Source: DASVDK01 sp036381125 [NCBI: Thermodesulfobacteriota bacterium]
GTDB taxonomy: Bacteria; DASVDK01
Length of the DNA stretch: 24,819 nucleotides
Assembly (NCBI GenBank): GCA_036381125.1
Contig: DASVDK010000062.1
Coordinates: 1 to 24,819, forward strand
Reading direction: 5' to 3'
Made by a program: the position numbers and the translations under genes. A model generated the notes under the pieces. That model searched no databases and was not told the DNA's origin. It saw nothing but the letters and a program-made list of their open reading frames with translations. Positions 6,157-24,062 of the stretch are shown here, piece by piece; the stretch's first letter is position 1, and each line of letters begins with the position of its first letter.

Positions 6157-6426
6157 GCGTCCTCCAGGTGAGACGACGTGGCGGCCCCGTGCGGCCCGGC
6201 TTGCACGCGGCACGCCATCCGCCAACTTCGCGAACGTACACGGTTTGCGCAGGCGCTAACTGTACCACGCCCGCCCCGCCGGGACATCGGTGCCCCGCAA
6301 GCCGGCCGCCAACCGTGCGTCCGGCCGTCGGTGCGCGCTGGCCCGGCCGATGCACCGCCTCGCCGGTGCAGCGAACGGCCTGATCGCGACCCGGCCTGCC
6401 GGACCGCGATCGGAGGGAGAGCCGAG
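6157..6426. other. Divergent intergenic region, promoters likely
   Basis: This 270-bp gap separates the minus-strand radical SAM pair from the plus-strand membrane protein and must hold both promoters unless expression is read-through. The segment 6225-6270 is less GC-rich than its surroundings and contains GTACA at 6236-6240 and its complement TGTAC at 6261-6265. No FNR box (TTGAT-N4-ATCAA) or confident -35/-10 pair was seen. Confidence 0.4.
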
Positions 6427-6927
6427 ATGACAGCCGCACACGTCCACCTGATCCTTACCCACGTCCCGATCGTCGGGGTCGCCGTCGCCGCTCTGCTCTT
6501 CGTGGTGGCCTGGCGGATGCGCAGCGCCCCCTTCCAGCGCGTCGCCCTCTCGTTCGTCGTCCTCTTCGCGCTGCTCACCATTCCGCTCTACTTCACGGGC
6601 GAGGCGGCGGAGGAGGTCGTCGAGCGGATGCCCGGCGTGTCCGAGCCGCTGATCGAGGAGCACGAGGAGGCGGGAGGGGTCTCGTTCATTGCCGTGGAGG
6701 TGCTCGGCGCGGTAGCCCTCCTCGGGGCCCTCGCCTTTCGCAGGCGGCCCGGCATCCCGGCGGCCTTCTCGACCGTCATCGTCGTCCTCTCGCTCGTCTC
6801 GATCGGCCTCCTCGTGTACACGGGCTCCCTGGGCGGCCAGATACGGCGACCCGAGCTGCGCGCGGAGGGCGCCGCCGCAGACGTCGGGCACGCGCAGCCC
6901 GCTCGGGACGGCGAGGACGACGACTGA
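6427..6927 (+). CDS. Four-helix integral membrane protein, DUF2231-like (copy 2)
   Basis: A 166-residue protein starting at the ATG at 6427, with GGAGGG at 6412-6417. It is a clear paralogue of the protein at 503-1012: both share a His-rich first helix (here AAHVHLILTHVPIVGV), MRSAPFQRVAL, TGE.AEE.VE..PGV.E, LIE.HEEA, EVLG..ALL.AL.FR and GSLGGQIR/GYLGGQIR near the end, and both end in an acidic tail. About four membrane helices are expected. Unlike copy 1 it has no cytochrome or YceI partner; it stands alone, divergent from the radical SAM pair and convergent with a Crp/Fnr remnant. Function is unknown; a membrane redox or heme-related role is a guess from both contexts. Confidence 0.82.
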   Translation: MTAAHVHLILTHVPIVGVAVAALLFVVAWRMRSAPFQRVALSFVVLFALLTIPLYFTGEAAEEVVERMPGVSEPLIEEHEEAGGVSFIAVEVLGAVALLGALAFRRRPGIPAAFSTVIVVLSLVSIGLLVYTGSLGGQIRRPELRAEGAAADVGHAQPARDGEDDD

Positions 6928-6946: not shown

Positions 6947-7135
6947 TCACCGGGCACCGTCGGGCGAGACGTACGGCGCCGCCTCGCTCCAGCGCGCAAG
7001 GCCCTGCGGGTCGACGACGAGGACCCGGGCCCGCTCGAGCCTGACGACGCCGTCGCGCTCGAGGGTCTTCAGCGCCCGCTGGACGACCTCGCGTACCGAC
7101 CCGGTCATGGCCGCGATAAGACGTCCGGCGCGACC
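6947..7135 (-). pseudogene. Remnant of a Crp/Fnr-family regulator (C-terminal winged helix only)
   Basis: On the minus strand the frame ending at the stop 6947-6949 encodes LIAAMTGSVREVVQRALKTL, followed by ERDGVVRLERARVLVVDPQG. This matches the end of a Crp/Fnr DNA-binding domain: the recognition helix pattern TGS.RE.V.RAL..LE, then the wing and a closing strand. No cyclic-nucleotide-like beta-roll is found upstream in this or the other two minus frames, and no sensible start exists next to the motif. The gene therefore looks truncated at its 5' side, with the break near 7130. It lies tail-to-tail with the copy 2 membrane protein. A full regulator may once have controlled these genes. Confidence 0.6.
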
Positions 7136-7416: not shown

Positions 7417-8625
7417 ATGAAATGGGCTGCCACGATGGCACGGCGCAGGCGGCTGCTGGCCCTCGCGGCGGCGGCGCTGTTCGCCCTGGGCGGCACGCTG
7501 GCCTGGCGCTGGTGGAGCCGCTCGCCCGAGGGCGTCCTGCTCGCATCGGGCACCATCGAGGCGACCGAGGTCGACGTCAACACCAGGGTCGCAGGCCGGG
7601 TCCTCGAGCGGCCGGTCGACGAAGGCGACTGGCTCGAGCCGGGCATGCTCGTGGCGCGCCTCGAGAGCGCCGAGCTGCAGGCCGAGGTGGAGCGGCTGCG
7701 GGCCTCGCTCGCCGCGACCCGAACCCGGCTGCCCCAGCTCCGCACGGAGATCGACCTCAAGGATCGGCTCGCGCGGGCCGGTATCGATCAGGCGAGGGCC
7801 GACCTGGCGGCCCGAGAGGCGCGCCTCGCCGAGCTGCGGAGCGGCGCCCGCCGCCAGGAGGAGCAGATGGCCGCAGCGCAGGCGCGCGAGGCCGAGGCGA
7901 ACCTCGTGAACGCGCGTGCCGAGTTCGAGCGGCAGGAGGCGCTCTTCGAGGAGAGGATCATCGCCCGGCAGGCGCTCGACCGGGCGCGCACCGCCTTCGA
8001 CGTCGCCGCCGAGCGGCACCGCAACGCCCTCGAGCGGCTCGACCTCGTGAGGGAGGGGCCGCGTCAGGAGGAGATCCGCCGGGCCGAGGCCGAGGTCCGG
8101 CAGGCGGCCGCCGCCCTGCGTCTGGCCGAGACGGGCGAGATCGAGGTCGTGCGGGCGCGCCAGGAGCTCGAGACGCTGAAGGCGCAGATCGCCCGCGACG
8201 AGGCGGCGCTCCAGGCGGCGCTCGTCCAGCTCGAGTACACGGTGCTCCGGAGCCCCCGGCGCGGCGTCGTCCTGCGCGAGCACGTCGAGCCGGGCGAGGT
8301 CATCGCCGCCGGCACGCCGGTCGTGACCATCGCCGACCTGCAGGACGTGTGGCTCAAGATCTACGTCCCCGAGCCGCAGCTCGGCCGGGTGAAGCTCGGC
8401 CAGACGGCCGAGGTCACGACCGACTCCTACCCGGGCAAGGTGTACCGGGGGACCGTGACGTTCGTCAGCGCCGAGGCGGAGTTCACCCCGAAGAACGTTC
8501 AGACCCAGGAGGAGCGGGTGAAGCTCGTCTTCGCCGTGAAGATCACCCTGGACAACCCGGACCAGGAGCTGAAGCCGGGCATGCCGGCCGACGCCCGGGT
8601 CCTCATCGAGGAGACGACGTCATGA
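7417..8625 (+). CDS. HlyD/YbhG-family membrane fusion protein
   Basis: A 402-residue periplasmic adaptor for an ABC exporter. The start is the ATG at 7417 (MKWAATMARR); a second ATG at 7435 is possible. One N-terminal membrane helix spans residues ~12-30. Residues ~43-85 form the first half of the barrel-sandwich (lipoyl-like) domain, with GTIEATEVDVNTRVAGRV. Residues ~86-255 are a long Ala/Glu/Arg-rich coiled-coil hairpin. The second lipoyl half, TVLRSPRRGVVLREHVEPGE, follows, and then a beta-barrel with IADLQDVWLKIYVPE and ELKPGMPADARVLIE. It heads an operon that also encodes two ABC ATPases and two ABC-2 permeases, the same component set as E. coli YbhG-YbhF-YbhS-YbhR. It overlaps the next gene by ATGA. 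The exported substrate is not evident. Confidence 0.92.
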   Translation: MKWAATMARRRRLLALAAAALFALGGTLAWRWWSRSPEGVLLASGTIEATEVDVNTRVAGRVLERPVDEGDWLEPGMLVARLESAELQAEVERLRASLAATRTRLPQLRTEIDLKDRLARAGIDQARADLAAREARLAELRSGARRQEEQMAAAQAREAEANLVNARAEFERQEALFEERIIARQALDRARTAFDVAAERHRNALERLDLVREGPRQEEIRRAEAEVRQAAAALRLAETGEIEVVRARQELETLKAQIARDEAALQAALVQLEYTVLRSPRRGVVLREHVEPGEVIAAGTPVVTIADLQDVWLKIYVPEPQLGRVKLGQTAEVTTDSYPGKVYRGTVTFVSAEAEFTPKNVQTQEERVKLVFAVKITLDNPDQELKPGMPADARVLIEETTS

Positions 8626-9071
8626 CATTCGAGATCCCCGAACCGCTCAAGGTCGAGCACGAGGCGCTCCACGCCGACCTCGTCGAGGCGATCCGCGCAG
8701 GCGGCCGCGTCGGGGCGGCGGCGCAGGCGGTTGCCGACGTCCTCCATCCGCACTTCGTGCGCGAGGAGGAGATCGCCATGCCGCCGCTCGCGCTGCTCGA
8801 GCCGCTGGCCGCCGGCAGGGTGACGCCCGAGATGGCGAGCGCGCTCGAGATGACCGACGCCCTGAAGGCCGAGCTGCCGCGGATGCTCGCCGAGCACGGG
8901 CGGATCGTGAAGGCGCTCGAGGCCCTGGCCGACGCCGGCCGGGCCGAGGCCAGGCCCGAGATCGTGGCGTTCGCCGAGAAGCTGATGCTCCACGCGCAGG
9001 TCGAGGAGAAGGTCCTCTACCCGGCGTCCATCCTGGTCGGCGAGTACCTGAAGGCCAGGCTCGGCCGGTAA
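8622..9071 (+). CDS. Hemerythrin-like diiron protein
   Basis: A 149-residue cytoplasmic four-helix protein with the diiron ligand pattern in order: H13 and H17 in KVEHEALH, H44 with E48 in HPHFVREEE, H92 in AEHGRI, and H124 with E128 in LHAQVEEKVLYP. The start is the ATG at 8622, overlapping the previous stop, and the next gene starts two bases after its TAA, so it is embedded in the exporter operon. Hemerythrin-like proteins bind O2 or NO at a diiron centre, or serve as iron or redox sensors. A hemerythrin inside a YbhGFSR-like operon is unusual. It could protect against or sense NO or O2 near the nitrate reductase locus; that is inference. Confidence 0.88.
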   Translation: MTFEIPEPLKVEHEALHADLVEAIRAGGRVGAAAQAVADVLHPHFVREEEIAMPPLALLEPLAAGRVTPEMASALEMTDALKAELPRMLAEHGRIVKALEALADAGRAEARPEIVAFAEKLMLHAQVEEKVLYPASILVGEYLKARLGR

Positions 9072-9073
9072 CC

Positions 9074-10027
9074 ATGAGCGAGCCGGCCATCGAGATCCGC
9101 GGGCTCACCCGCCGCTTCGGCTCGATCACGGCGGTCGACCGCCTGAGCCTCACCATCCCGAAGGGGGAGCTCTTCGGCCTGGTGGGCCCCGACGGCGCCG
9201 GCAAGACGACGATGCTGCGGATGCTGGCCGGCATCCTCGCGCCGACGGACGGTGACGCCCGGGTGGCCGGACGGTCGATCCGGACGGAGCCGGAGGCGGT
9301 CAAGGACCGCATCGCCTACATGTCGCAGCGCTTCGGCCTCTACGGGGACCTCACGGTGCTCGAGAACCTCCTGTTCTACGCCGACCTCTTCGAGGTCCCG
9401 GCGGGGGAGCGGCCGGCGAGGATCGAGCGGCTCCTCGGCTTCAGCAACCTCACGCCGTTCAAGGGCCGCCTCGCCGACACGCTCTCGGGCGGCATGAAGC
9501 AGAAGCTCGGGCTCGCCTGCGCCCTGATCCACACGCCGGAGATCGTCCTCCTCGACGAGCCGACCAACGGCGTCGACCCGGTGTCGCGGCGCGACTTCTG
9601 GCGGATCCTCTACGAGATGCTCAAGGAGGGGGTGACGATCGTCGTGACCACCGCGTACCTCGACGAGGCGGAGCGGTGCAACCGGGTCGGCCTCCTGCAC
9701 CAGGGTCGCCTCCTCGCCCTCGACACGCCCGACCGCGTGAAGGCGCTCGTGGCCGAGGAGATGGTCGAGATCCCGGTGGCCGACGCCTGGCGGGCGCGCC
9801 GGGTCCTCGAGGCCGTCCCCCAGGCGAGGGGGGTGAGTCTCTTCGGTCACCGCCTCCACGTGGCCCTGGGCGACGCGGAGCGCGACCTCCCGTCGGTCCT
9901 GGCCGCCCTCGAGGCCGAGGGCCTCGCGCCGCACGACGCTCGCCGCGTCGTCCCGTCGCTCGAGGACGTCTTCATCGCCATGGTGGAGCGGAGCCCCCAG
10001 GGAGCGCCCGATGGCCGCGCCGCCTGA
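9074..10027 (+). CDS. ABC transporter ATPase (first of two, YbhF N-half-like)
   Basis: A 317-residue ABC-2-type ATPase. Walker A is GPDGAGKTT, with Asp in the usual Asn place. The Q loop is YMSQRFGLY, the signature is LSGGMKQKL, and Walker B is VLLDEPTNGVDP with the catalytic Glu present. The switch (H-loop) position reads TTAYLDEAER, so the usual His is Ala at residue ~194. The C-terminal ~90 residues form the extra domain found in ABC-2 drug or lipid exporter ATPases. The second ATPase gene overlaps it by 17 bp; in E. coli YbhF the two domains are one polypeptide. It energises export together with the HlyD and permease proteins. The loss of the H-loop His suggests a degenerate, regulatory site in a heterodimer. 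Confidence 0.93.
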   Translation: MSEPAIEIRGLTRRFGSITAVDRLSLTIPKGELFGLVGPDGAGKTTMLRMLAGILAPTDGDARVAGRSIRTEPEAVKDRIAYMSQRFGLYGDLTVLENLLFYADLFEVPAGERPARIERLLGFSNLTPFKGRLADTLSGGMKQKLGLACALIHTPEIVLLDEPTNGVDPVSRRDFWRILYEMLKEGVTIVVTTAYLDEAERCNRVGLLHQGRLLALDTPDRVKALVAEEMVEIPVADAWRARRVLEAVPQARGVSLFGHRLHVALGDAERDLPSVLAALEAEGLAPHDARRVVPSLEDVFIAMVERSPQGAPDGRAA

Positions 10028-10964
10028 CCTCGCCGTACGGGTCCGGGGCCTCGAGCGGCGCTTCGGCGACTTCGTGGCCGTGGACCGCGTTTCCTTCGAG
10101 GTCCCGTGGGGCGAAGTCTTCGGCTTCCTCGGCCCCAACGGCGCCGGCAAGTCGACCACCATCCGGATGCTGACCGGGCTCCTCGCGCCGACCGCCGGCG
10201 AGGGTGAGGTGGCCGGGTACGACGTCCGCACCGAGGGCGAGGCCATCAAGGCGCGGATCGGCTACATGTCCCAGAGGTTCTCGCTCTACGAGGACCTGAC
10301 CGTCGAGCAGAACCTCGACTTCTACGGCGGGATCTACCGCATCCCGAAGGCGAAGAAGGGGGCCCGCAAGACCTGGGCGGTGGAGATGGCCGGGCTGGCC
10401 GGCCGCGAGCGGACGCTCACGCGCGAGCTGGCCGGGGGCTGGCGGCAGCGGCTCGCGCTCGGCGCGGCGATCCTCCACGAGCCGAGGATCCTCTTCCTCG
10501 ACGAGCCGACGTCCGGCGTCGACCCGATCTCGCGCCGCGCCTTCTGGGACCTCATCCGGACGCTCGCCCGCGACGGCGTCACCGTCTTCGTCACGACCCA
10601 CTACATGGACGAGGCGGAGTACTGCGACCGGCTCGCGCTCATCTACCGGGGGCGAATGATCGCGCTCGGCACCCCCGACCAGCTCAAACGCGAACACATG
10701 CCCGAGGACGTGCTCGAGGTGGCCGTCGACCGCCCGGTCGAGGCGCTCGAGGCCCTCTCGCGCGAGCCGTCGGTCCGCGAGGCGGCCATCTTCGGGGCCC
10801 TGCTCCACGTGGTCGTCCCCGAGGCCGCCGCCGGCGTGCCGGTGGTCCGCTCGACGCTCGAGGGGGCCGGCCTGCGGGTCTCCCGGATCGAGCGGATCCT
10901 GCCCACCCTCGAGGACGTGTTCGTCTCGCTCATCGAGGCGGAGGACCGGAAGGAGGCTCGCTGA
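10011..10964 (+). CDS. ABC transporter ATPase (second of two, YbhF C-half-like)
   Basis: A 317-residue ATPase with canonical Walker A GPNGAGKST, Q loop YMSQRFSLY, Walker B LFLDEPTSGVDP and H-loop VTTHYMDEAE. Its signature is LAGGWRQRL rather than LSGG. The start is the ATG at 10011, inside the previous gene, with AGGGAG about ten bases upstream. With its partner it gives a non-equivalent ATPase pair: one protein has the standard signature and no H-loop His, the other has the H-loop His and an altered signature. The C-terminal extension is like that of the partner. It is followed by AAGGAGG and a GTG start for the permease one base after the stop. Confidence 0.93.
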   Translation: MAAPPDLAVRVRGLERRFGDFVAVDRVSFEVPWGEVFGFLGPNGAGKSTTIRMLTGLLAPTAGEGEVAGYDVRTEGEAIKARIGYMSQRFSLYEDLTVEQNLDFYGGIYRIPKAKKGARKTWAVEMAGLAGRERTLTRELAGGWRQRLALGAAILHEPRILFLDEPTSGVDPISRRAFWDLIRTLARDGVTVFVTTHYMDEAEYCDRLALIYRGRMIALGTPDQLKREHMPEDVLEVAVDRPVEALEALSREPSVREAAIFGALLHVVVPEAAAGVPVVRSTLEGAGLRVSRIERILPTLEDVFVSLIEAEDRKEAR

Positions 10965-10965
10965 C

Positions 10966-12090
10966 GTGCGTCTCGCCCGCCTCTTCGCCGTGGCCCGCAA
11001 GGAGGTCATCCAGATCCGGCGCGACCCGCGCAGCCTGGCGATGGCGTTCGTCATCCCGATGATCCTCCTCTTCCTCTTCGGCTACGCGCTCACGCTCGAC
11101 GTCGACGACCTGACGACGATCGTCTACGACCAGGACCGCACGGCCGCGAGCCGGGAGTTCCTCGCCCGCTTCGAGGAGTCGGGCTACTTCAGGGTCGTGG
11201 CCCACGCGGAGGCCTACGGCGACCTCGAGCGCGCCATCGACGCCGGCCGCGCCCAGGTCGGCCTCGTCGTCCCCACGGGCTTCGCCCGCGACCTCGACCG
11301 GGACCGCCGCGTGCCGGTCCAGGCGATCCTCGACGGCAGCGACTCGAACACCGCCACCATCGCCATCGCCTACCTCGAGGGGATCGCGGGCCGCTACTCG
11401 GACGAGCTCGTCACGGCGAGGGTCGGCCTGGGCGCCCGGGAGCCGCCGGTCGAGAGCCGGCTGCGCGTCTGGTACAACCCGGAGATCGAGAGCAAGAACT
11501 ACATCGTGCCGGGCCTGATCGCCGTCATCATGATGGTGATCGCGGCCCTCCTCACCTCCCTCACGATCGCGCGGGAGTGGGAGCGCGGCACGATGGAGCA
11601 GCTCGTCGCCACCCCGGTCCGGGTCCCGGAGCTGGTCCTCGGCAAGCTCCTCCCCTACTTCGGCATCGGCCTCGTCGACGTGGCGCTGGCGGTCCTGGCG
11701 AGCACCCTCGTCTTCCGCGTCCCCCTCCGCGGGAACGTCGTGCTGCTCCTCGGCCTCTCGCTCGTCTTCCTCCTCGGGGCCCTGAGCCTGGGCCTCCTGA
11801 TCTCGATCCGGGCGAAGTCGCAGCTCGTGGCGAGCCAGGTCGCCATGGTGGTCACGTTCCTCCCCTCGTTCCTCCTGTCGGGGTTCATGTACGACATCGG
11901 CAACATGCCGGGCTGGCTGCAGACCGTCACCTACGCGTTCCCGGCCCGGTACTTCGTGACGATCCTCAAGGGCATCTACCTGAAAGGGGTCGGTCCGCCG
12001 GCGCTGGTCGTGGAGGCCGCGTTCCTCGCGCTCTTCGCCCTCGCCGTGACGGCCGCCGCGCTCCGGGCGTTCCGCAAGAACCTCGAATGA
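10966..12090 (+). CDS. ABC-2 type permease (YbhS/YbhR-like), first copy
   Basis: A 374-residue inner-membrane permease. The start is the GTG at 10966, with AAGGAGG at 10950-10956. It has one N-terminal helix after the ARKEVIQIRRDPRSLAMAF segment, then a large extracytoplasmic domain with DGSDSNTATI and RVWYNPEIESKNY, then five or so helices with the ABC-2 motif REWERGTMEQL and the closing SGFMYDIGNMPGWLQ region. This is the typical layout of drug/lipid-exporter ABC-2 permeases. It probably pairs with the permease at 12979-14133 as a heterodimer, driven by the two ATPases upstream. A CDF transporter gene lies between the two permeases. Confidence 0.93.
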   Translation: MRLARLFAVARKEVIQIRRDPRSLAMAFVIPMILLFLFGYALTLDVDDLTTIVYDQDRTAASREFLARFEESGYFRVVAHAEAYGDLERAIDAGRAQVGLVVPTGFARDLDRDRRVPVQAILDGSDSNTATIAIAYLEGIAGRYSDELVTARVGLGAREPPVESRLRVWYNPEIESKNYIVPGLIAVIMMVIAALLTSLTIAREWERGTMEQLVATPVRVPELVLGKLLPYFGIGLVDVALAVLASTLVFRVPLRGNVVLLLGLSLVFLLGALSLGLLISIRAKSQLVASQVAMVVTFLPSFLLSGFMYDIGNMPGWLQTVTYAFPARYFVTILKGIYLKGVGPPALVVEAAFLALFALAVTAAALRAFRKNLE

Positions 12091-12106
12091 CGGAAGGGGG
12101 CCGACC

Positions 12107-12967
12107 GTGACCGGGACGACAGACCTCCGGGGCATCAAGCTCGCTCTCGCGACCTACGTCGTCGTCTTCGTGATGAAGCTCGCCGTGTACTTCATGTCCG
12201 GAGTCATGGCGCTCCTCGCCGAAGCGTTCCACACCCTGAGCGACGTCCTGATCTCGGGCTTCCTCCTCCTGGCGGCCAGGTGGTCGCGCAAGGCGCCCGA
12301 TCAGGTGCACATGTTCGGCTACGGACGGGCGCAGAACGTGGCGGCCCTGGTGGCAGCGACCCTCTTCATCTCCTTCACGAGCCTTCGGCTCTACGAGGAG
12401 GCGATCCCCAGGCTCTTCAGGCCCGAGGCGGCCGCCTACGAGAACCTCCCGCTCGCCGTCGGCGTGCTCGTCGTCTCGATGCTGATCGCCGCCGCGCCGC
12501 TGGTCGTGCTCCTCAGGCAACGCGCGCGGGGCGCGGCCGCCAGGGCTCAGCTCATGGAGCTCGTGAACGACGAGCTGGGCCTCGTGGCCGCGCTCGTCGG
12601 GACCCTCTTCGTCATCCGGGGACAGCCGCTCGCCGACCCGATCGCCACCCTGGTCGTCGCCACGATCATCGCGGCGAACGCCGTCGGGCTCTTCAAGGAC
12701 AACCTCCGCGTCCTGATCGGGCGGTCGCCGGGGCCGGAGTACCTGGCGAAGGTCGAGAGAGCCGCTCGGTCGGTCGACGGGGTCGAGGGCGTCCGGGACC
12801 TCAAGGCCGAGTACGTCGGGCCCGACGAGGTCCACGCCGGCATGCGCATCGGCGTGCGGCGGGGCGTCCCGGTCGAGGAGGCCGGCCGCATCGTGGCGGA
12901 GGTGCGGCGGCGCGTGCAGGACGAGGTCGACTGCCGCCACTGCTTCGTCGAGCTGGACGTGGCGTAG
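12107..12967 (+). CDS. Cation diffusion facilitator (CDF) metal transporter with atypical metal site
   Basis: A 286-residue protein starting at the GTG at 12107, with AAGGGGG just upstream. It has about six membrane helices and a C-terminal cytoplasmic domain. The helix 2 metal motif is AEAFHTLSDV (H42-x-x-x-D46), the following loop is FGYGRAQNVAAL, and the helix 5 position reads ELVNDELG (E151-x-x-x-D155), where most family members have His or Asp. CDF proteins export divalent metals (Zn, Fe, Mn, Co) by proton antiport. The H-D/E-D set does not match the common Zn (H-D/H-D), Fe/Zn (D-D/H-D) or Mn (D-D/D-D) patterns, so the metal cannot be called. The tail VDCRHCFVELDVA contains a CxxC. It sits between the two ABC-2 permease genes with short gaps, so it is transcribed with the exporter. 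Confidence 0.88.
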   Translation: MTGTTDLRGIKLALATYVVVFVMKLAVYFMSGVMALLAEAFHTLSDVLISGFLLLAARWSRKAPDQVHMFGYGRAQNVAALVAATLFISFTSLRLYEEAIPRLFRPEAAAYENLPLAVGVLVVSMLIAAAPLVVLLRQRARGAAARAQLMELVNDELGLVAALVGTLFVIRGQPLADPIATLVVATIIAANAVGLFKDNLRVLIGRSPGPEYLAKVERAARSVDGVEGVRDLKAEYVGPDEVHAGMRIGVRRGVPVEEAGRIVAEVRRRVQDEVDCRHCFVELDVA

Positions 12968-12978
12968 GGGTCCGGACG

Positions 12979-14133
12979 ATGTGGGAACGCGTGAAGCACA
13001 TGCTGATCAAGGAGTTCATCCAGATCCTCAGGGACCCGCGGATGAAGGCGGTCATCTTCGTGACGCCCGTCCTCCAGCTCCTCGTCTTCGGCTACGCGGT
13101 GACGACCGACGTGACGGAGATCCCGACGGCCGTCGCGGACCTCGACCGCAGCCAGCAGACGCGGGAGATCGTCCGGCGCTTCGAGTCCTCCGGATACTTC
13201 AGGGTCGTCCGCCGGGTCGCCGACGCGCGCGACCTCCGGGCCCTCCTCGACCGGGGGACCGTGAAGGCGGCGCTCCAGTTCGACCCCGGCTTCACGACCG
13301 ACCTGCAGCGGGGCCGCACGGCGAGCCTCCAGATCCTCGTCGACGGCACCGACTCGAACACGGCCAGCGTCGTCATGGACTACGCGAACCGGATCGTCGC
13401 CCGCTACAATCAGGACGCCGCGCCCGCCGCCCGGGCCGCGGCGCGTCTGGCGGTCGGCACCGCGCCCGGTCCCGAACGGACGGCCCTCCCGAGCGTCGAC
13501 CTCCGGACGCGGGCCTGGTACAACCCCGACCTCGAGAGCCGCAACTACAATGTCCCGGCGGTGATCGCCATCATCGTCATGCTGACCTCGCTCCTCCTCA
13601 CGTCGATGGCCATCGTGCGCGAGCGCGAGATCGGCACGATGGAGCAGCTCATGGTCACGCCCATACGGCCGGCCGATCTGATCCTCGGCAAGACCCTGCC
13701 GTTCGCGCTCATCGGCTTCTTCGACGTCGCGCTGATCACGGCGGTCGCCGTCCTCTGGTTCGCGGTGCCGATCGCGGGAAGCCTCCTCCTGCTCCTCGGC
13801 GCGACGGCGCTGTACCTCGCCTCGACGCTCGGGATCGGCCTCTTCATCTCGACCGTCTCGAGGACGCAGCAGCAGGCGCTCATGTCGACGTTCTTCGTCT
13901 ACCTGCCGGCGGTCCTCCTCTCGGGCTTCATGTTCCCCATCGCCAACATGCCGCCGGCGATCCAGTACCTGACCTACGTGAACCCGCTCCGGTACTTCCT
14001 CGTGATCATCCGGGGGATCTTCCTCAAGGGGAACGGCCCGGACGTCCTCTGGCCGCAGATGCTGGCGCTCTCCGTCCTCGGCGTCATCGTCCTCACGGCC
14101 AGCACGCTGAGGTTTCGGAAGCGGCTCGATTGA
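12979..14133 (+). CDS. ABC-2 type permease (YbhS/YbhR-like), second copy
   Basis: A 384-residue permease from the ATG at 12979, 11 bases after the CDF stop. The frame is open far upstream, but there it shadows the CDF gene. It shares with the first permease the opening KEFIQILRDPRMKAVIF, the external DGTDSNTASV and RAWYNPDLESRNYNVPAVI motifs, REREIGTMEQLMVTP, and SGFMFPIANMPPAIQYLTYV. It is a paralogue and the likely heterodimer partner. It lacks a nearby ATPase of its own, which supports sharing of the two ATPases upstream. The following cytochrome starts 16 bases downstream after an AAGGAG. Confidence 0.93.
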   Translation: MWERVKHMLIKEFIQILRDPRMKAVIFVTPVLQLLVFGYAVTTDVTEIPTAVADLDRSQQTREIVRRFESSGYFRVVRRVADARDLRALLDRGTVKAALQFDPGFTTDLQRGRTASLQILVDGTDSNTASVVMDYANRIVARYNQDAAPAARAAARLAVGTAPGPERTALPSVDLRTRAWYNPDLESRNYNVPAVIAIIVMLTSLLLTSMAIVREREIGTMEQLMVTPIRPADLILGKTLPFALIGFFDVALITAVAVLWFAVPIAGSLLLLLGATALYLASTLGIGLFISTVSRTQQQALMSTFFVYLPAVLLSGFMFPIANMPPAIQYLTYVNPLRYFLVIIRGIFLKGNGPDVLWPQMLALSVLGVIVLTASTLRFRKRLD

Positions 14134-14149
14134 GAAGGAGAGTCGATTC

Positions 14150-14638
14150 GTGACGAAGACGAGATCCACGAGGCGTGCACGGGCCGCCGTCGCCGCGGCC
14201 CTGACCGTGATCACCGTCGGTTTCGCCGCCGGGTCCCCGAACCTCGGCAGGGCCGACACCCCGAGTCCCGCCGACACCCGGCAGCGGCTCGCGCTGCCGG
14301 CCGGGCCGCGCGACCAGGTGCTCGCCGAGATGCGGCACATGCTGGAATCGGTGAACGGTATTCTCGGGGGCCTCGCCGACGGCGACATGCGCGCCGTCGA
14401 GAAGGCCGCGCGCGCGTCCGGCATGGCGGCGGCCGGCAACGTGAACCCCCAGATACGGCAACGCCTGCCCCAGGCCTTCCTCAAGCTCGGGATGGGGACC
14501 CACAAGGCGTTCGATGCGCTCGCCGACACGATGGCGGCCGGCGGGACCCGGGAGGACGCGCTGAGGGGCCTCACGGAGATCACGTCGAGGTGCGTGTCGT
14601 GTCACGCGACGTACCGGCTCGACGAAGCGCCGCACTAG
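14150..14638 (+). CDS. Class II c-type cytochrome (c'/c556-like), exported
   Basis: A 162-residue protein starting at the GTG at 14150, with AAGGAG at 14135-14140. It has a signal peptide (TKTRSTRRARAAVAAALTVI, then a hydrophobic stretch, cleavage probably near GRADTP). The mature part is helical with a single C-terminal heme site, CVSCHATYR, the hallmark of class II cytochromes, where the heme is near the C-terminus of a four-helix bundle. The Met pair in AEMRHMLESV may supply a sixth ligand, as in c556. Members bind NO or CO (c') or carry electrons (c556). It closes the exporter operon and lies 134 bp before the nitrate reductase cluster, so an NO-related role is possible, though not shown. 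Confidence 0.82.
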   Translation: MTKTRSTRRARAAVAAALTVITVGFAAGSPNLGRADTPSPADTRQRLALPAGPRDQVLAEMRHMLESVNGILGGLADGDMRAVEKAARASGMAAAGNVNPQIRQRLPQAFLKLGMGTHKAFDALADTMAAGGTREDALRGLTEITSRCVSCHATYRLDEAPH

Positions 14639-15014: not shown

Positions 15015-15842
15015 ATGGTACGGCGACGTTCTCGCGCATGGGTGCTCGGACTCGTCCTGGCCGGTGGGTTCGTACCGGCCCTCGCGGCGTGGGCGGCGCC
15101 CTCGCCGGCGGACGGCGAGCGGCTCTTCCAGGAGCGCTGCGCCGCCTGCCACACCATCGGCAAGGGGGACCTCGTCGGCCCGGACCTCCAGGGGATCACC
15201 GCCCGCCGCGACCGGGACTGGCTCGTCCGGTGGATCGTCGCGCCCGACCGGATGCTGGCGGCGGGCGACCCGATCGCCACGGCCAGCCTCGCGAAGTACG
15301 GCGTCCCGATGCCCAACCTCGGGGTGACCGAGGCCGAGGCGGCGGCCCTCGTGGGCTATCTCGGCGCGCAGGCGGGCCCCGCCCCCGCGCCGCAGCCGGC
15401 GCGGGCGGTCGCACTCCCGCCGGGCGACCCGGCGGCCGGCAAGGACCTCTTCACCGGAGCCGCACGGCTCGCCGGCGGCGGCCCCCCGTGCATGGCCTGC
15501 CACAGCGTCGCCGGCATCGGCGCGCTCGGCGGCGGCGCGCTGGGGCCCGACCTCACGCCGGCCTACGCGAAGTTCGGGGCGAGCGGAATCGCCTCGATCC
15601 TCGCGACGATGCCCTTCCCCACCATGGCGCCGATCTTCACGACGCAGCCGCTCACCGCGCGGGAGCAGGCCGACCTCGCCGCGTTCCTGGAGCAGACGGC
15701 GGTGATGCAGCGGCCGCCGCAGGCGGTCGGCGCGCTCGCCGCGCTCGCGGGCGCCGGGGCGGTGCTCCTCCTGGCGCTGGCCAACCTGCTCTGGCGCCAC
15801 CGACTCACCGGCGTGCGGCGGTCGCTGGTCAACCGGGGGTAA
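15015..15842 (+). CDS. Diheme cytochrome c with C-terminal membrane anchor (NarC-like)
   Basis: A 275-residue protein with a signal peptide ([20 protein letters not shown], cleavage probably near AWAAPSP). It has two heme-binding domains: CAACH at residues 42-46, with a probable Met ligand in GVPMPNLG near residue 99, and CMACH at 159-163, with Met ligands possible at FPTMAPIF. A helix at about residues 238-260 and a basic tail ([10 protein letters not shown]) anchor it to the membrane. The gene is directly upstream of narG (5-bp gap), which matches the position of narC in the Thermus narCGHJIK operon, where a diheme cytochrome is part of the nitrate reductase complex and takes part in electron flow. 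Homology to that NarC is inferred from context and heme number, not from alignment. Confidence 0.85.
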
Positions 15843-15847
15843 CCGAC

Positions 15848-18800
15848 ATGGGCTGGATCCAGGACCTCGTCAGGCCGAAGGCGCGCCAGTGGGAGGAGTT
15901 CTACCGGAACCGCTGGCAGCACGACAACGTCGTCCGCAGCACCCACGGGGTCAACTGCACGGGCGGCTGCTCGTGGGCCGTGTTCGTGAAGGACGGCATC
16001 GTCACATGGGAGATGCAGCAGACCGACTACCCGATGCTCGAGCCGGGCCTGCCGCCCTACGAGCCGCGCGGCTGCCAGCGGGGCATCTCGGCCTCCTGGT
16101 ACGTCTACAGCCCGATCCGCGTGAAGTACCCGTACGTCCGCGGTGCGCTCATGGACCTCTGGCGCGAGGCGCGCGGGCGGCACGCGAACCCGGTGGAGGC
16201 GTGGGGCTCGATCGTCGGCGATCCCGAGAAGCGGGCCCGCTACCAGCGCGCGCGGGGCAAGGGCGGCTTTCGCCGCGCGCGCTGGGACGAGGTCCTCGAG
16301 CTCGTCGCCGCCGCCTGCCTGCACACGGCGAAGCGCTGGGGGCCCGACCGCGTGTTCGGCTTCTCCCCCATCCCCGCGATGTCGTACCTCTCGTACGCCG
16401 GCGGCTCGCGCTTCCTGCAGCTCTTCGGCGGCGTGAACATGAGCTTCTACGACTGGTACGCCGACCTCCCGAACGCCTTCCCCGAGATCTGGGGCGACCA
16501 GACCGACGTCTGCGAGAGCGCCGACTGGTTCAACGCCAGGTACATCGTGTCGATGGGCTCGAACCTCAACATGACGCGCACGCCGGACGTGCACTTCATC
16601 TCCGAGGCGCGCCACGAGGGGGCCAAGTTCGTCGTCATCGCCCCCGACTTCAGCCAGGTGGCCAAGTACGCCGACTGGTGGATCCCCGTGCGCGCCGGCC
16701 AGGACACGGCGCTCTGGATGGCGGTGAACCACGTCATCCTCACCGAGTTCCACGCCGCCCGTGAGGTCCCCTACTTCACCGACTACCTGCGGCGCTACAC
16801 GGACGCCCCGTTCCTCGTCGAGCTGGTCAGGGGCGACGGCGGCTACGTGCCGGGGCAGTTCCTGCGCGCCGGGCGGCTCGCCCGGTACCGGAACACGGAA
16901 CTCGGCGACTGGAAGCTCCTCGTCCACGACGCGGCGAGCGGCGAGCCCCGGATGCCGAAGGGGGCGGTCGGGTTCCGGTGGGGCCGCGAGACGGGTAAGT
17001 GGAACCTCGAGATGAAGGACGGCCTCGACAACGCGCCGATCGAGCCGGTCCTGACGTTCCTCGGCCGCGAGGAGGGCGTCCTCGAGGTCGGCTTCCACGA
17101 CTTCGCCGGCGGTCGGATGGTGTCGCGCGGCGTGCCGGTGCGGTACGTCGAGACCGCCGAGGGGCGCGTCCCGGTCACCACGGTCTTCGACCTCCTCATG
17201 GCGCAGTTCGGCGTCGGCCGCGGCCTCGCCGGCGCCTACCCGACCGGCTACGACGACGACGCCCCCTACACGCCCGCGTGGCAGGAGCGGTTCACCGGGA
17301 TCGGCCGCGAGACCGTCATCCGGCTCGCGCGCGAGTTCGCCGGCAACGCCGAGGCGACCCGCGGCCGCTCCATGATCATCGTCGGCGCGAGCATCAACCA
17401 CTGGTACAACAACAACCTCGCCTATCGCGCCCCCATCACGGCCCTGATCCTCACCGGCTGCTGCGGCCGCAACGGCGGCGGGATGAACCACTACGTCGGC
17501 CAGGAGAAGCTGACCCTCGTGGCGCCCTGGACGACGCTCGCCTTCGCCCTCGACTGGGTGAGGCCGCCGCGCCGGCAGCAGTCGCCCCTCTGGCACTACC
17601 TCCACAGCGACCAGTGGCGCTACGAGGGGGACTTCACCGAGTACGCCGCGGTCCCGCCCGGCGCGCGCTGGGCGAAGGGCCACGCGGCCGACCTGGCCGC
17701 CAGGGCGGTGCGCCTCGGGTGGATGCCCTTCTACCCGCAGTTCGACCGCAACCCGCTCGACCTCGCGCGGGAGGCGGAGGCGGCCGGCGCCGCGACCGGG
17801 GAGGCCGCGGCGCGCTGGACGGTCGAGCAGATCCGGAGCCGCCGGCTCCGCTTCGCCGTGGACGACCCGGACGCCGAGGCGAACTGGCCGCGCGTCTGGC
17901 TCATCTGGCGCGGCAACGCGATCATGTCGAGCGCGAAGGGGCACGAGTTCTTCCTGCGCCACTACCTCGGGACGCACGACAACAGCGTCGCCGAGGAGCA
18001 CGCCAGGGGCCGCACCCGGACGGTCACGTTCCGGGAGCCGGCGCCCCGGGGCAAGATGGACCTCGTGGTCGACGTGAACTTCCGCATGGACACGTCGGCG
18101 CTCTACTCCGACGTCGTCCTGCCGACCGCGATGTGGTACGAGAAGAACGACCTCAACACGACCGACCTGCACTCCTTCATCCATCCGCTCGGCGCCGCCG
18201 TGCCGCCGGTCTGGGAGGCGAAGAGCGACTGGGAGATCTTCAAGGCGCTCGCCCGCACGGTGAGCGACCTCGCGCCGCTCGTCTTCCCGAAGCCGGTCCG
18301 CGACCTGGTCGCCACGCCGCTCATGCACGACACGCCCGACGAGGTCGCCCAGCCCGCGGTGCTCGACTGGGCGGCCGGCGAGTGCGAGCCGGTCCCGGGC
18401 GCGACGATGCCGCACATCCGGGTCGTCGAGCGGGACTACGTCAACCTCTACAACCGCTTCGTCTCGTTCGGCCCGAACGCGCGCGAGGACGGCCTCGACG
18501 GCAACGGCGTCCACGTCCCGATCGAGCGGTTCTACGACGAGCTGCTCGAGAACCCGGTCGGCGGCACTCCCGATCCGCGGCACCTGCGCTGCGTCGCCTG
18601 GGGCGGCCGCAAGTACCCGTCCCTGGAGGACGCCCTCGACGCCGCGAACCTGCTGCTCCACCTGTCGCCGGAGACCAACGGCGAGGTCGCGTACGAGGCC
18701 TTCCGGCACGAGGAGGCGCGCGTCGGCCTGCCGCTCGCCGACCTGGCGGAGAAGGTGCGCGGCGTGCGCATGAGCTTCGGCGACCTCACCCGGCAGCCGA

Positions 18801-19492
18801 GGCGCACGCTGATCAGCCCCTGCTGGACCGGCATGGTCAACGACGGCCGCGCCTACGCCGCCTGGTGCATCAACGTCGAGCGGCTCGTCCCCTGGCGGAC
18901 GCTCTCGGGGCGGCAGCACCTCTACGTCGATCACCCCCACTACCTCGACTTCGGCGAGCACCTGCCGACCTTCAAGGCGAAGCTCGACCCGCGGCGGACG
19001 GGCGACATCGTCCTGAGCCCCAACGGCGACGGCTGCCTCGTGCTGAACTACATCACGCCGCACGGCAAGTGGCACATCCACTCGACCTACTACGACAACC
19101 ACCGGATGCTCACGCTCTCGCGGGGAATCGAGCCCTGCTGGATCAACGACCGCGACGCCGAGCGGATCGGCATCAGGGACAACGACTGGGTCGAGGTCTA
19201 CAACGACAACGGCGTCATGGTGACCCGGGCGGCGGTGAGCGCCAGGGTCCAGCCCGGCACCTGCATGGTCTACCACTCGCCCGAGCGGACCATCTCCATC
19301 CCGAAGTCGCAGGTCCGCGGGGGGCGGCGGGGCGGCGGGCACAACAGCCTCACGCGCACCCGGATCAACCCGGTCCAGCTCGCCGGCGGTTATGCCCAGT
19401 TCACCTACGGCTTCAACTACTGGGGGCCGATCGGCATCTTCACCCGGGACACGTACGTGGTGGTCCGACGGCTCGAGCGGCTCGAATGGTGA
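15848..19492 (+). CDS. narG: Respiratory nitrate reductase alpha subunit (Mo-bisMGD catalytic subunit)
   Basis: A 1214-residue protein, close to the ~1245 residues of E. coli NarG. The start is the ATG at 15848, preceded by a GGGGGT stretch. The FS0 cluster ligands are H33, C37, C41 and C76 in [11 protein letters not shown] and RGCQRG, with the same spacing as the H49/C53/C57/C92 set of E. coli. The Mo ligand Asp is D202 in [11 protein letters not shown]. Other family landmarks include [52 protein letters not shown], and the C-terminal [11 protein letters not shown] and GFNYWGPIG. The start [11 protein letters not shown] has no Tat signal, so the active site faces the cytoplasm in the standard NarGHI way, reducing nitrate to nitrite. 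NarG-like nitrite oxidoreductases look similar, but narJ, narI and narK alongside favour nitrate reduction. The stop overlaps the next gene's ATG. Confidence 0.97.
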
Positions 19493-20037
19493 CGGGCGGA
19501 GAGAAGGCGGACGGGCCGCTCACCCGGCGGCGGCTCTCGGAGCACTTTTTGCGCGTCTTCCACGAGGATCACCGCGCCCTGCGCGACGAACTGCTCGACC
19601 TCGTGGAGGCGCTCCGCGCGCGCGACGGGGCGGCGGTCCGGTCGCGGCTCGACCGGATCGCGGCCGACACCGGGCCCCACTTCCGTTACGAGGAGGAGGC
19701 GCTCTACCCGGCGCTCGTCGAGATCCTCGGGCCCGAGCCGATGGAGGACCTCTTCGGCGACCACGACCGGTTCATCGGCGTCGCGGGGAGCCTGGCCGCG
19801 CTCGCGGCCCGAAGCGTCCTCTCCGACGAGGACGCCGCCTACGGCATCCGCCTCGCCCGGAGCGTCCTCCCCCACGTGAGCCGCTGCGGCGGGCTCGCGA
19901 TCCTGGTGGAGGCCCTCTCGAACGAGACGGTGCGGGCCGTCCTGGGCGCCCGGGCGTACGCGCGCGCCGATGGGCTGGACCTGTTCGACTGGGCCATGCG
20001 GGTGCGGCGCCGGCCCCGCGTCGCGACGGCGGTGTAG
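19486..20037 (+). CDS. Hemerythrin-like protein inserted between narG and narH
   Basis: A 183-residue helical protein whose ATG at 19486 (or GTG at 19489) overlaps the narG stop in ATGGTGA. Diiron-type ligands are visible: H26 and H29 in [13 protein letters not shown]65 with E69/E70 in [14 protein letters not shown]93 in FGDHDRF and H130 in [10 protein letters not shown]. The fourth helix lacks the usual HxxxE glutamate, so the second iron site may be incomplete. Such proteins bind O2 or NO or sense redox state. The position inside a nar operon, coupled to narG, suggests a role in maturation, protection or regulation of the nitrate reductase, for example as an O2 or NO sensor. It is not closely similar to the hemerythrin at 8622-9071. 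Confidence 0.83.
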
Positions 20038-20078
20038 GGCGCGCCCGGGACCCGGTCACGGGCGGCAAGGAGGACGAC

Positions 20079-21580
<1,502 letters not shown>

Positions 21581-21587
<7 letters not shown>

Positions 21588-22138
21588 GGCGACGGCTCCT
21601 CGCGCTCTTCGCGGACATCCTCGACTACCCGGGCCCCGGGCTGGCGCGGGCGGTCGGCGCGTGCGAGGCGCTGGCGGCGTCGGCGAGCGCCGAGGCGGCG
21701 TCGCTCCTCGGCGCGTTCCGAACCTTCGTCGAGCAGACCCCCCTCGCCCGCCTCGAGGAGGTCTACACCGCCACGTTCGACCTCGACGCCGCCTGCCATC
21801 CCTACGTCGGCTACCACCTCTTCGGCGAGACCTACAAGCGGAGCGTCTTCCTCGTGGGGTTGCGCGAGCGCTACCGCGCGATCGGCTACCTGGACGGCGC
21901 GGAGCTGCCCGACCACGTCGCGGTCCTCCTCCGCTTCCTCGCGCTGACGGAGGACGCGGCGCAGGCCGAGGAGGTCGTGCAGGAGGCGCTCCTCCCGGCG
22001 CTCGAGCGGATGACCGCCGGGGCCGACGCGGGCCCGGAGGAGGCCGGGCACGAGCCGAAGCCGGCGCACTACCGGCCGGTCCTCCGCGCCCTGTACCTCG
22101 TCCTCGGAGGGGAGGCCGCGCGGGCCGCGGCCGTGTGA
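21581..22138 (+). CDS. narJ: Nitrate reductase molybdenum cofactor assembly chaperone
   Basis: A 185-residue, all-helical TorD/NarJ-type protein. The start is the ATG at 21581, overlapping the narH stop. Family landmarks are the opening LLALFADILDYPGPGLARAV, the central LEEVYTATFDLDAACHPYVGYHLFGE region with the typical Y....D......P..G..L pattern, and LPDHVAVLLRFLAL. NarJ holds apo-NarG, allows Mo-bisMGD insertion and delays membrane attachment until assembly is complete. It is not part of the final enzyme. Gene order narG-(hemerythrin)-narH-narJ-narI supports the call. Confidence 0.93.
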
Positions 22139-22180
22139 TCCGCGGAGCCCCACGGGCCCCGAGCCAAGGAGGCCGCACCC

Positions 22181-22861
22181 ATGGTCGACCTGCTCCTGTT
22201 CGCCGTGTTCCCCTACGTCGCCGCCGCGCTCGCCGTCGTCGGCGGGGTCTACCGGTACGCGAACGACCGCTTCTCGTTCTCGAGCCAGTCGTCGCAGTTC
22301 CTCGAGAACCGGGCCCTCTTCTGGGGCTCGGTGGCCTGGCACTACGGGGTGCTCGTCATCCTCCTCGCGCACCTCCTCGCGCTGCTCTTCCCGGGGGCAT
22401 GGGCGACCCTGATCGCGTCCCCCCTGCGCCTCTACGCGCTCGAGGTGACCGGCCTCGCCCTGGCGGTCGTGACGATCGCGGGGCTCGCGGCGTTGATCGT
22501 CCGGCGGCTCTCGAGCCCGCGCGCGGCGGCCGTGACGAGCCCGATGGACTGGGTCCTGCTCGCGGCCCTTCTCGCGCAGGTCGTGCTCGGCTTCTGGGTG
22601 GCCCTCTTCTACCGCTGGGGGTCCGACTGGTACCTGCACACGGCCGTCCCCTGGCTCGTGTCGCTCGTCACGTTCTCGCCCCGCATCCAGCACGTGGCGG
22701 CGCTGCCGTGGGTGGTGAAGCTGCACATGACCGGCGCGTTCGTCCTCCTCGCCCTCTTCCCGTTCACTCGCCTCGTCCACGTCGTCACGGTGCCGATCGC
22801 CTACCTCTGGCGACCCTACCAGGTGGCGATCTGGAACCGGCGCACCGCCGCCGGGCGATAG
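22181..22861 (+). CDS. narI: Nitrate reductase gamma subunit, cytochrome b
   Basis: A 226-residue membrane protein from the ATG at 22181, with AAGGAGG a little upstream. Five membrane helices are expected. The four heme b ligands are H54 and H64 (VAWHYGVLVILLAHLLAL) and H182 and H200 (KLHMTGAF and RLVHVVTVP). The spacings of 10 and 18 residues equal those of E. coli NarI (H56/H66 and H187/H205). It oxidises quinol at the outer face, passes electrons to NarH and so builds proton motive force. The C-terminal LWRPYQVAIWNRR is also typical. Confidence 0.96.
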   Translation: MVDLLLFAVFPYVAAALAVVGGVYRYANDRFSFSSQSSQFLENRALFWGSVAWHYGVLVILLAHLLALLFPGAWATLIASPLRLYALEVTGLALAVVTIAGLAALIVRRLSSPRAAAVTSPMDWVLLAALLAQVVLGFWVALFYRWGSDWYLHTAVPWLVSLVTFSPRIQHVAALPWVVKLHMTGAFVLLALFPFTRLVHVVTVPIAYLWRPYQVAIWNRRTAAGR

Positions 22862-22865
22862 CGCC

Positions 22866-24062
22866 GTGGCCTCCCGACCGGCGAACCGCCAGCTCGCGCT
22901 GGCGACCGTCGCGTTCGGGGTCGCCTTCGCGGTGTGGGGCCTCCTCCCCGGGCTGATGCCGGTGCTCGGGGAGGCGTACCGCCGCGAGGAGGGGCATCGC
23001 CTCGGCGCCGCCGCGGCGGCGCTCGTGGTCGCGATCCCGGTCGTCCTCGGCTCGCTCGGCCGCATCCCGGCCGGCATGCTGGCGGACCGGTTCGGCGGCC
23101 GCCTCGTCTTCAGCGCCCTCCTGGTCCTGGTCGCCGTTCCCTGCTTCGCCCTCGCGCTCGACCACGACGACTACGACCGGCTCCTCGTTTTCGGGCTCTG
23201 GATCGGCCTCGCGGGGGCGGCGTTCGCGGTGGGCGTCGGCTTCGTCTCGGCCTGGTTCCCGCCCGACCGGCAGGGCGCGGCGCTCGGCGTCTACGGCACC
23301 GGCAACGTCGGCCAGTCGGCGGCGGTGTTCCTCGCGCCGCTCCTCGCGACGACGATCGGCCTCGCTGCGACGTTCGCGCTCTTCGGCGCCGCCGCGCTGG
23401 CGTACGGGATCGCCTTCGCCCTCCTCGCCCGCGACGCGGCACCCGCCCGGCGCCGCGAGCCGATGGTGGCCGGCCTCCGCGCGCTCCTGGCCGACCCGGC
23501 GGCCTGGCGGCTCTCGCTCTTCTACTTCCTGACGTTCGGCGGGTTCGTGGCGCTCGGCGTCTACCTGCCGACCCTCCTGCGGGAGACGTTCGGCCTCGCC
23601 CCGGTCGACGCCGGCGCGCGGACCGCCGGGTTCGTCCTCCTCGCCACGGCGGTCCGGCCGGTCGGGGGGTGTCTCGGCGACCGGGTCGGCGGGGAGCGCG
23701 TGCTCGCGGGCGTCTTCGCGGGGGTCGCCCTCCTCGCGTGGCTCCTCGTGCTCGACTCGATCTATCCGTTCACCGTCGGCGCGCTCGGCTCCGCCGCGCT
23801 CCTCGGCCTCGGCAACGGCGCCGTCTTCAAGCTCGTCGCGCAGCGCTTCCCGCAGCGGACCGGCACCGCCACGGGGCTCGTCGGCGCGGCCGGCGGCCTC
23901 GGCGGCTTCTTCCCGCCCCTCGCGCTCGGGCTCTTCAAGGACACGGTCGGCAGCTACGCGCCCGGGTTCGCCCTCCTCAGCGTCTTCGCCCTCGTCTGCG
24001 AGCTCGTGCTCGTGCGCACGGTCGCGCCCGACGTCTGGAAGCCGACGCGGGTCGCGTCCTGA
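22866..24062 (+). CDS. narK: Nitrate/nitrite transporter, major facilitator superfamily
   Basis: A 398-residue, 12-helix transporter. The start is the GTG at 22866, four bases after the narI stop; its ribosome site is weak and coupling is likely. NarK landmarks are the loop motif GRIPAGMLADRFGGR, FVSAWFPPDRQGAALGVYG, the nitrate signature GTGNVGQSAAVFLAPL in helix 5, and GAAGGLGGFFPPLALG in the second half, along with YFLTFGGFVALGVYLP. It imports nitrate by proton symport or exchanges nitrate for nitrite; which of the two cannot be told from sequence alone. It ends the nar operon and is convergent with a BTAD regulator. Confidence 0.94.
   Translation: MASRPANRQLALATVAFGVAFAVWGLLPGLMPVLGEAYRREEGHRLGAAAAALVVAIPVVLGSLGRIPAGMLADRFGGRLVFSALLVLVAVPCFALALDHDDYDRLLVFGLWIGLAGAAFAVGVGFVSAWFPPDRQGAALGVYGTGNVGQSAAVFLAPLLATTIGLAATFALFGAAALAYGIAFALLARDAAPARRREPMVAGLRALLADPAAWRLSLFYFLTFGGFVALGVYLPTLLRETFGLAPVDAGARTAGFVLLATAVRPVGGCLGDRVGGERVLAGVFAGVALLAWLLVLDSIYPFTVGALGSAALLGLGNGAVFKLVAQRFPQRTGTATGLVGAAGGLGGFFPPLALGLFKDTVGSYAPGFALLSVFALVCELVLVRTVAPDVWKPTRVAS

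Follow-up and report, generated by a model that had tools for sequence, protein, structure and literature searches.

An eight-gene block combining a YbhGFSR-type exporter with a hemerythrin, a CDF metal transporter and a cytochrome c'-like protein beside a nar operon

We analysed a stretch of 24,819 nucleotides (hereafter the window: contig DASVDK010000062.1 of assembly GCA_036381125.1), from an organism named Thermodesulfobacteriota bacterium at NCBI and DASVDK01 sp036381125 in GTDB. Positions 7417-14638 hold eight genes on the forward strand, with gaps of -4, 2, -17, 1, 16, 11 and 16 bases (Table 1; loci and genomes used for comparison carry L and G numbers). Their Pfam matches are, in order, HlyD_D23/HlyD_3, Hemerythrin, ABC_tran (twice), ABC2_membrane_3, Cation_efflux with ZT_dimer, ABC2_membrane_3 again, and a sub-threshold Cytochrom_C_2. 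An earlier note on this DNA had described a hybrid operon of eight co-directional, tightly spaced genes, and both the spacing and the label are borne out, i.e., the genes of an ATP-binding cassette (ABC) exporter stand in one block with those of a hemerythrin, a cation diffusion facilitator (CDF) and a cytochrome. The same note had proposed to look whether the eight-gene order is kept in relatives. As far as we searched, the order occurs in the window alone, and by that test the block is a lineage-specific accretion rather than a conserved system.

The reading frame marked by third-position GC changes from gene to gene as annotated. Substitutions relative to relatives, compared for both permeases, the second ATPase, the CDF, the hemerythrin and the cytochrome (the HlyD adaptor and the first ATPase were left out), peak at third codon positions, with frequencies of 0.38-0.56 there and 0.09-0.33 at the first two positions, the pattern that selection on the protein would give. 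This contrast is strong for the CDF and for the exporter genes compared, and weaker for the hemerythrin and the cytochrome. A scan of the block gave no sigma-70-like promoter and one terminator-like match, within the second ATPase gene (chance expectation 1.5), both weak evidence at 73% GC.

Table 1. Positions of the eight genes, the adjoining regulator remnant and the nar operon in the window.
Feature	Position	Strand	Evidence and remarks
HlyD-family periplasmic adaptor (YbhG/YhiI-like)	7417..8625	+	Pfam HlyD_D23 3e-26; alternative start 7435
Hemerythrin (HHE) domain protein	8622..9071	+	Pfam 1.4e-8; ATG overlaps the HlyD stop as ATGA
ABC ATPase 1 (ATP1), resembling the N half of YbhF	9074..10027	+	H-loop His replaced (TTAYLDEAE)
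ABC ATPase 2 (ATP2), resembling the C half of YbhF (49%)	10011..10964	+	H-loop His retained (TTHYMDEAE)
ABC-2 permease 1 (perm1), YbhS-like (40%)	10966..12090	+	Pfam, BLAST
CDF metal transporter, A-site HD-ED	12107..12967	+	Pfam Cation_efflux 2e-40
ABC-2 permease 2 (perm2), YbhR-like (31%)	12979..14133	+	Pfam, BLAST; 81-82% to G013, G031
Class II cytochrome c (cytochrome c'-like)	14150..14638	+	Sub-threshold Pfam; leader-like N terminus; CVSCH near the C terminus
Crp/FNR-family regulator remnant, divergent	6983..7117	-	HTH_Crp_2; 80% to the intact gene of L048
nar operon (cytochrome c, narG, hemerythrin, narH, narJ, narI, narK-like major facilitator gene)	15015..24062	+	Pfam

The exporter core (HlyD adaptor, two ATPases and two ABC-2 permeases) makes up a full YbhGFSR-type set in one block, and its order is that of the adaptor, two ABC domains and two permeases of E. 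coli YbhG-YbhF-YbhS-YbhR. In BLAST, RbbA and YhhJ give the ATPases and permeases lower scores than do YbhF, YbhS and YbhR, which upholds the earlier label "YbhGFSR-like", with a near tie between YbhG and YhiI for the adaptor (119 and 118 bits, 29% identity to each). The first ATPase has Walker A, signature and Walker B motifs and lacks the H-loop histidine, as does the N half of YbhF; of the exporter's two ATP sites, one is therefore probably degenerate. In contrast with the E. coli system, the two ATPases are separate genes, the hemerythrin, CDF and cytochrome are extra, and a decayed Crp/FNR gene stands in the place of the TetR-type gene cecR. Tetracycline efflux and Na+(Li+)/H+ transport have been reported for YbhGFSR (PMC7190983). 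We also considered the E. coli YhiI-RbbA-YhhJ system, which has the same kinds of subunits and whose RbbA is the top NCBIfam model for both ATPases and both permeases. We rejected it as the closest exporter, given scores of 248-291 bits against an RbbA cut-off of 1050 and BLAST scores below those of the Ybh proteins; moreover, the window has separate genes where RbbA is a single fused protein.

Among 95 genomes of Methylomirabilota, 61 had a permease match at E ≤ 1e-60, and we examined 20 of these regions. The second permease is 81-82% identical to its counterparts in G013 and G031, and 73% to that of G012. With NarG also close to that of a genome in this phylum (G096, 81%), the window probably stems from a member of Methylomirabilota (NC10), as far as the 95 genomes searched for the exporter and NarG can tell. 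Thirteen regions are HlyD-ATPase-ATPase-permease-permease loci (L047, L048, L049, L050, L051, L053, L055, L056, L059, L060, L061, L062 and L066; the HlyD start is incomplete in L059 and L061). The seven others are two contigs that end early (L052, L054), one exporter with no ATPases close by (L057), three exporters with one ATPase match and one permease match (L063, L064, L065), and an exporter remnant (L058) on the contig of L005, from a Candidatus Methylomirabilota metagenome-assembled genome (MAG; G001). None of the 13 five-gene loci had a match to the hemerythrin, the CDF or the class II cytochrome at E ≤ 1e-4; the places of the first two were covered in all of them, while that of the cytochrome is off the contig in L051 and, in L066, restricted to the 322 bases beyond the exporter. 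The closest relatives searched thus lack all three genes beside the exporter, the very outcome that the earlier note had named as refuting, and do not support an eight-gene system. In those most similar to the window (L047, L048 and L049, 64-82% identical, 64-72% for HlyD), the sites of insertion are closed. Their permease genes are separated by 6, 12 and 8 bases, respectively. In L047 the stop codon of HlyD and the start of the ATPase gene share an ATGA, at the point where the window has the hemerythrin, whose own start forms this overlap with HlyD. More distant loci are sometimes looser, e.g., with 154-155 bases between the permeases in L051 and L053. Searching from the other side gave the same picture. 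We examined 27 regions around relatives of the added genes, namely the six loci with a hemerythrin, those with a CDF apart from L005 (five) and the cytochrome loci of 16 out of 17 matching genomes, and found no HlyD or permease match in any. The exception is the CDF of L005, which lies near the exporter remnant. The literature search listings gave no apparent published description of this gene block.

The CDF protein matches Cation_efflux and ZT_dimer above cut-off. Its HD-ED quartet is common to all 13 full-length aligned relatives (FieF has DD-HD), from which the window copy differs by sitting inside an ABC operon. Barber-Zucker 2017 (PMC5703985) reports the HD-ED motif for part of CDF clade 8, a clade assigned to zinc for which other metals have also been shown, and gives the correlation between quartet and metal as limited. 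We found CDF matches in six of the 95 Methylomirabilota genomes (E ≤ 1e-30) and in four of the 377 genomes of the phylum of G002, itself included (E ≤ 1e-80). A cNOR-type norB lies some 1.2-5.5 kb from the CDF in five of the six loci of our first set (L001, L002, L003, L005, L006). Four of these are archaeal (L001, L002, L003, L006; two are named Methanoperedens), with CDF proteins 62-66% identical to that of the window. A c-type cytochrome occupies the place of NorC in all five, a diheme cytochrome is present in four and an M24 peptidase in three. The best PDB match of NorB from L003 and L005 is a solved cNOR NorB (3o0r), and the three other NorB are 76-77% identical to that of L003. No norB was found with the CDF of L104-L107 and L143-L145 (53-56% identity), and neither exporter nor norB matched on the stretches examined in the phylum of G002 (L004, L143, L144, L145). 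An M24 fragment adjoins the CDF of L103, as an M24 gene does in L005. A DUF6448 gene precedes the CDF in L003 (622-2247), a Methanoperedens contig. We also considered a transfer of the CDF between archaea and NC10; this is unsupported, as the tree leaves the window copy outside every starred set.

The cytoplasmic histidines of FieF have a metal role, although they are not required of all CDF proteins. The equivalents of H232, H248 and H283 are retained in 13 of 13, 13 of 13 and 12 of 12 aligned relatives (the 12 being those with letters at that position), and the window copy alone replaces them (H232R, H248R and H283E). Transport should still be possible, and cytoplasmic metal control has probably changed, unless constraint was relaxed. 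Such a change of control would suit an integrated device, in which the hemerythrin and the cytochrome c' sense or trap nitric oxide (NO) or O2 and serve, with the CDF, a single export cycle, e.g., of a metal-nitrosyl or heme-related cargo. Insertion points between subunits that must be made together also speak for such a device. Yet it occurs in no relative examined, the exporter elsewhere has five genes, and the loss of the histidines fits relaxed constraint equally well; we therefore regard it as very unlikely.

The last gene of the block encodes a cytochrome c'-like protein with 21.9 bits for Cytochrom_C_2 (gathering score 26.5) and a CxxCH motif. Searching PDB by sequence gave nothing at E ≤ 0.1. 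Foldseek placed cytochromes c' at ranks 1-10 with E-values of 0.016-0.19, none ≤ 0.001, for a low-confidence single-sequence model (pLDDT 66). Matches were found in 17 of the 95 Methylomirabilota genomes (E ≤ 1e-3), of which we examined 16, omitting G035 (a weak match with a stop). In nine (L108, L109, L110, L113, L117-L121) the cytochrome adjoins an NnrS-like gene with a COX1 domain. In all of these except L108, the cytochrome is flanked across from it by a ScdA_N-NnrS-DUF1858 protein, at a distance of 2.3 kb in L109. Pfam gives COX1 at threshold for the first protein and ScdA_N with a sub-threshold NnrS for the second; since the name of the first was read from the sequence and COX1 only just reaches the threshold, "NnrS-like" is a weak name for it. 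The cytochromes of the eight three-gene clusters (L109, L110, L113, L117-L121) are 51-61% identical to that of the window. The stretches with these clusters have no exporter match, whereas the cytochrome of the window ends an exporter block. When the 72 loci screened, which overlap in part and do not amount to a random control, were queried with NorB and NnrS at E ≤ 1e-15, no contig matched beyond those of the CDF and cytochrome loci named here.

The hemerythrin has an HHE domain above the Pfam cut-off, and its main His/Glu motifs are common to the six aligned sequences, the window included, with departures at some of them in L101, the most distant. A PDB sequence search gave nothing at E ≤ 0.1, and the AlphaFold model was too poor for a usable fold match. 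We found relatives in six of the 95 Methylomirabilota genomes (E ≤ 1e-5). None was found in the 377 genomes of the phylum of G002 at E ≤ 1e-15, an uninformative result, with at most 10 candidates scored per genome. In the Methylomirabilota, the hemerythrin of L097 lies about 5 kb from a distant NarG-like gene, and L099 includes a gene whose radical SAM product shares 47% identity with one of the window. A hydrophobic protein of 362 residues, with no Pfam or NCBIfam match, adjoins the hemerythrin in L097 (7143-8231); the same type of protein lies 322 bases from the hemerythrin in L098 (8433-9494) and precedes the nar operon in G096 (L138, 1720-2484). Twenty-two Sinorhizobium plasmid records match the hemerythrin, two at 61-65% identity and 20 below 60% (59.7% among the matches listed). 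In L151, L153 and L154 it adjoins DUF6448 (L151, 12001-13124), with Crp/Fnr or helix-turn-helix (HTH), PAS, acetate-CoA ligase-GNAT and universal-stress genes within 10 kb. The unannotated L152 has an equal gene set by tblastn. These Sinorhizobium neighbourhoods (relatives at ~60-65%) fit a low-oxygen operon, in which the hemerythrin would carry or store O2 for microaerobic life and NO would be incidental. So does the Mhr of Pseudomonas aeruginosa, which is reported to be an Anr-regulated O2-binding hemerythrin (PMC12403760). Such an operon leaves the association of the CDF with norB and of the cytochrome with NnrS unaccounted for, and we give it the smallest chance of the explanations considered here.

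The regulator and the permeases of such loci are also prone to change. An intact Crp/FNR gene stands divergent to the exporter in L048; the window retains only its C-terminal HTH part, and L005 a copy with an internal deletion. Compared with PDB, the regulator of L048 resembles general Crp/FNR proteins, DNR ranking well below. The permease fragment of L005 (2171-2821) is a fusion, its first 75 residues being 80% identical to the first permease of L048 and the rest 91% to the second, as recombination between paired paralogues would give. This is apparently its origin, an assembly fault of the MAG being the alternative. The fusion is followed by a NorC-like cytochrome, norB, an M24 peptidase and the N-terminally truncated CDF. 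Crp and acetate-CoA ligase-GNAT genes flank the exporter in L048 as well as the remnant in L005, and the families DUF6448, Crp and acetate-CoA ligase-GNAT recur together in differing orders. This fluidity, and an eight-gene order known from the window alone, would be expected under neutral accretion, where three genes entered an operon with good expression, have only its promoter in common with the exporter and serve no joint function. Neutral accretion sits less well with the tight junctions, including the ATGA overlap, and with the fact that two of the three newcomers belong to families that often neighbour NO genes elsewhere and landed beside a nar operon. It is unlikely in our judgement, if less so than the other alternatives.

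What is seen directly comprises the parts, the closed junctions of the nearest relatives, the regulator remnant and the neighbourhoods of the CDF and cytochrome families. The explanation that we favour, and hold to be rather probable, is a remodelled five-gene exporter with separate detoxifying parts that are co-expressed beside the nar operon and act side by side. An ordinary operon for a tripartite YbhGFSR-type exporter would have been remodelled in one lineage by insertion of the hemerythrin between adaptor and ATPase, of the CDF between the permeases, and of the cytochrome c' at the end, and in the same lineage the former divergent regulator (Crp/FNR) was reduced to a stub. The block would form one transcript, expressed with the nar operon during low-oxygen nitrate respiration, and its products would work in parallel, not as one complex. 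A presumably cytosolic hemerythrin would bind O2 or NO, and NO would also be the ligand of a presumably periplasmic cytochrome c'. The CDF would remove a divalent metal, zinc or iron, freed by the attack of NO on thiolates and Fe-S clusters, and the ABC pump would export a toxic organic compound.

The earlier note had guessed at a joint role in nitrosative or metal stress. The neighbours found elsewhere strengthen this for the CDF (norB) and for the cytochrome (NnrS-like), and the role itself is still one that we infer. A stronger version can be formulated, that of a dedicated nitrosative-stress exporter, where the hemerythrin and the cytochrome c' trap NO on either side of the membrane, the CDF and the ABC pump clear metal and damaged or nitrosylated cargo, and the CDF has given up cytoplasmic metal control of its own to come under that of the operon. 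We think this improbable, about as much so as the single export cycle discussed above. Nothing in the literature search listings appeared to describe NO defence, metal efflux and export coupled in this way.

Several observations weigh against side-by-side detoxification in a remodelled exporter operon. The norB-bearing loci L001, L002 and L006 have one common arrangement and are therefore not independent, which leaves two or three independent arrangements. For the best CDF relative (L103, 69%), 16 kb of sequence contain no norB, and L004 (59%) has none nearby. The nine cytochrome loci adjoining NnrS-like genes look like one conserved cluster, and the seven others (L111, L112, L114, L115, L116, L122, L123) lack matches to the NorB and NnrS genes and have no such cluster, save for a weak local match in L111. 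None of the six Methylomirabilota hemerythrin loci has a match to NorB or NnrS genes. A search for FNR/DNR boxes (TTGATN4ATCAA, up to two mismatches) gave a single match, inside the second permease gene, where 0.70 is expected by chance, and the 376 bases that separate the block from the nar operon may hold a separate promoter. Finally, the exporter and NarG were searched in the phylum of G001 alone, so nearer relatives, perhaps with the full gene order, may exist elsewhere.

If the favoured explanation is correct, the block is a clean case of genes with a shared physiological theme that were inserted at the joints of an existing operon and left it intact. This CDF lineage accompanies nitric oxide reductase in archaea of the Methanoperedens type and on one Methylomirabilota contig, and the pairing with norB makes it possible to test whether NO metabolism and metal efflux are connected in nitrate- or nitrite-dependent methane-oxidising communities.

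The nar operon that follows the block has its closest NarG in G096 (81% identity). It includes a second hemerythrin of the window (19486-20037), between narG and narH. Four Methylomirabilota nar operons (L139, L140, L141, L146) have a hemerythrin at the same place, 32-33% identical, which is not there in G096 (L137) and G013 (L142). Upstream of the block, on the reverse strand (3684-6225), lie two radical SAM/SPASM genes, one passing the TIGR04053 cut-off and the other nearest to AhbC/NirJ1/NirJ, below cut-off; these could possibly take part in heme b or d1 synthesis beside nitrate reduction. Two small membrane-type proteins (575-1012 and ~6427-6927), alike by eye and the first weakly matching DUF2231, bracket a stretch encoding YceI, a multiheme cytochrome, a VTT-domain protein and the radical SAM block.

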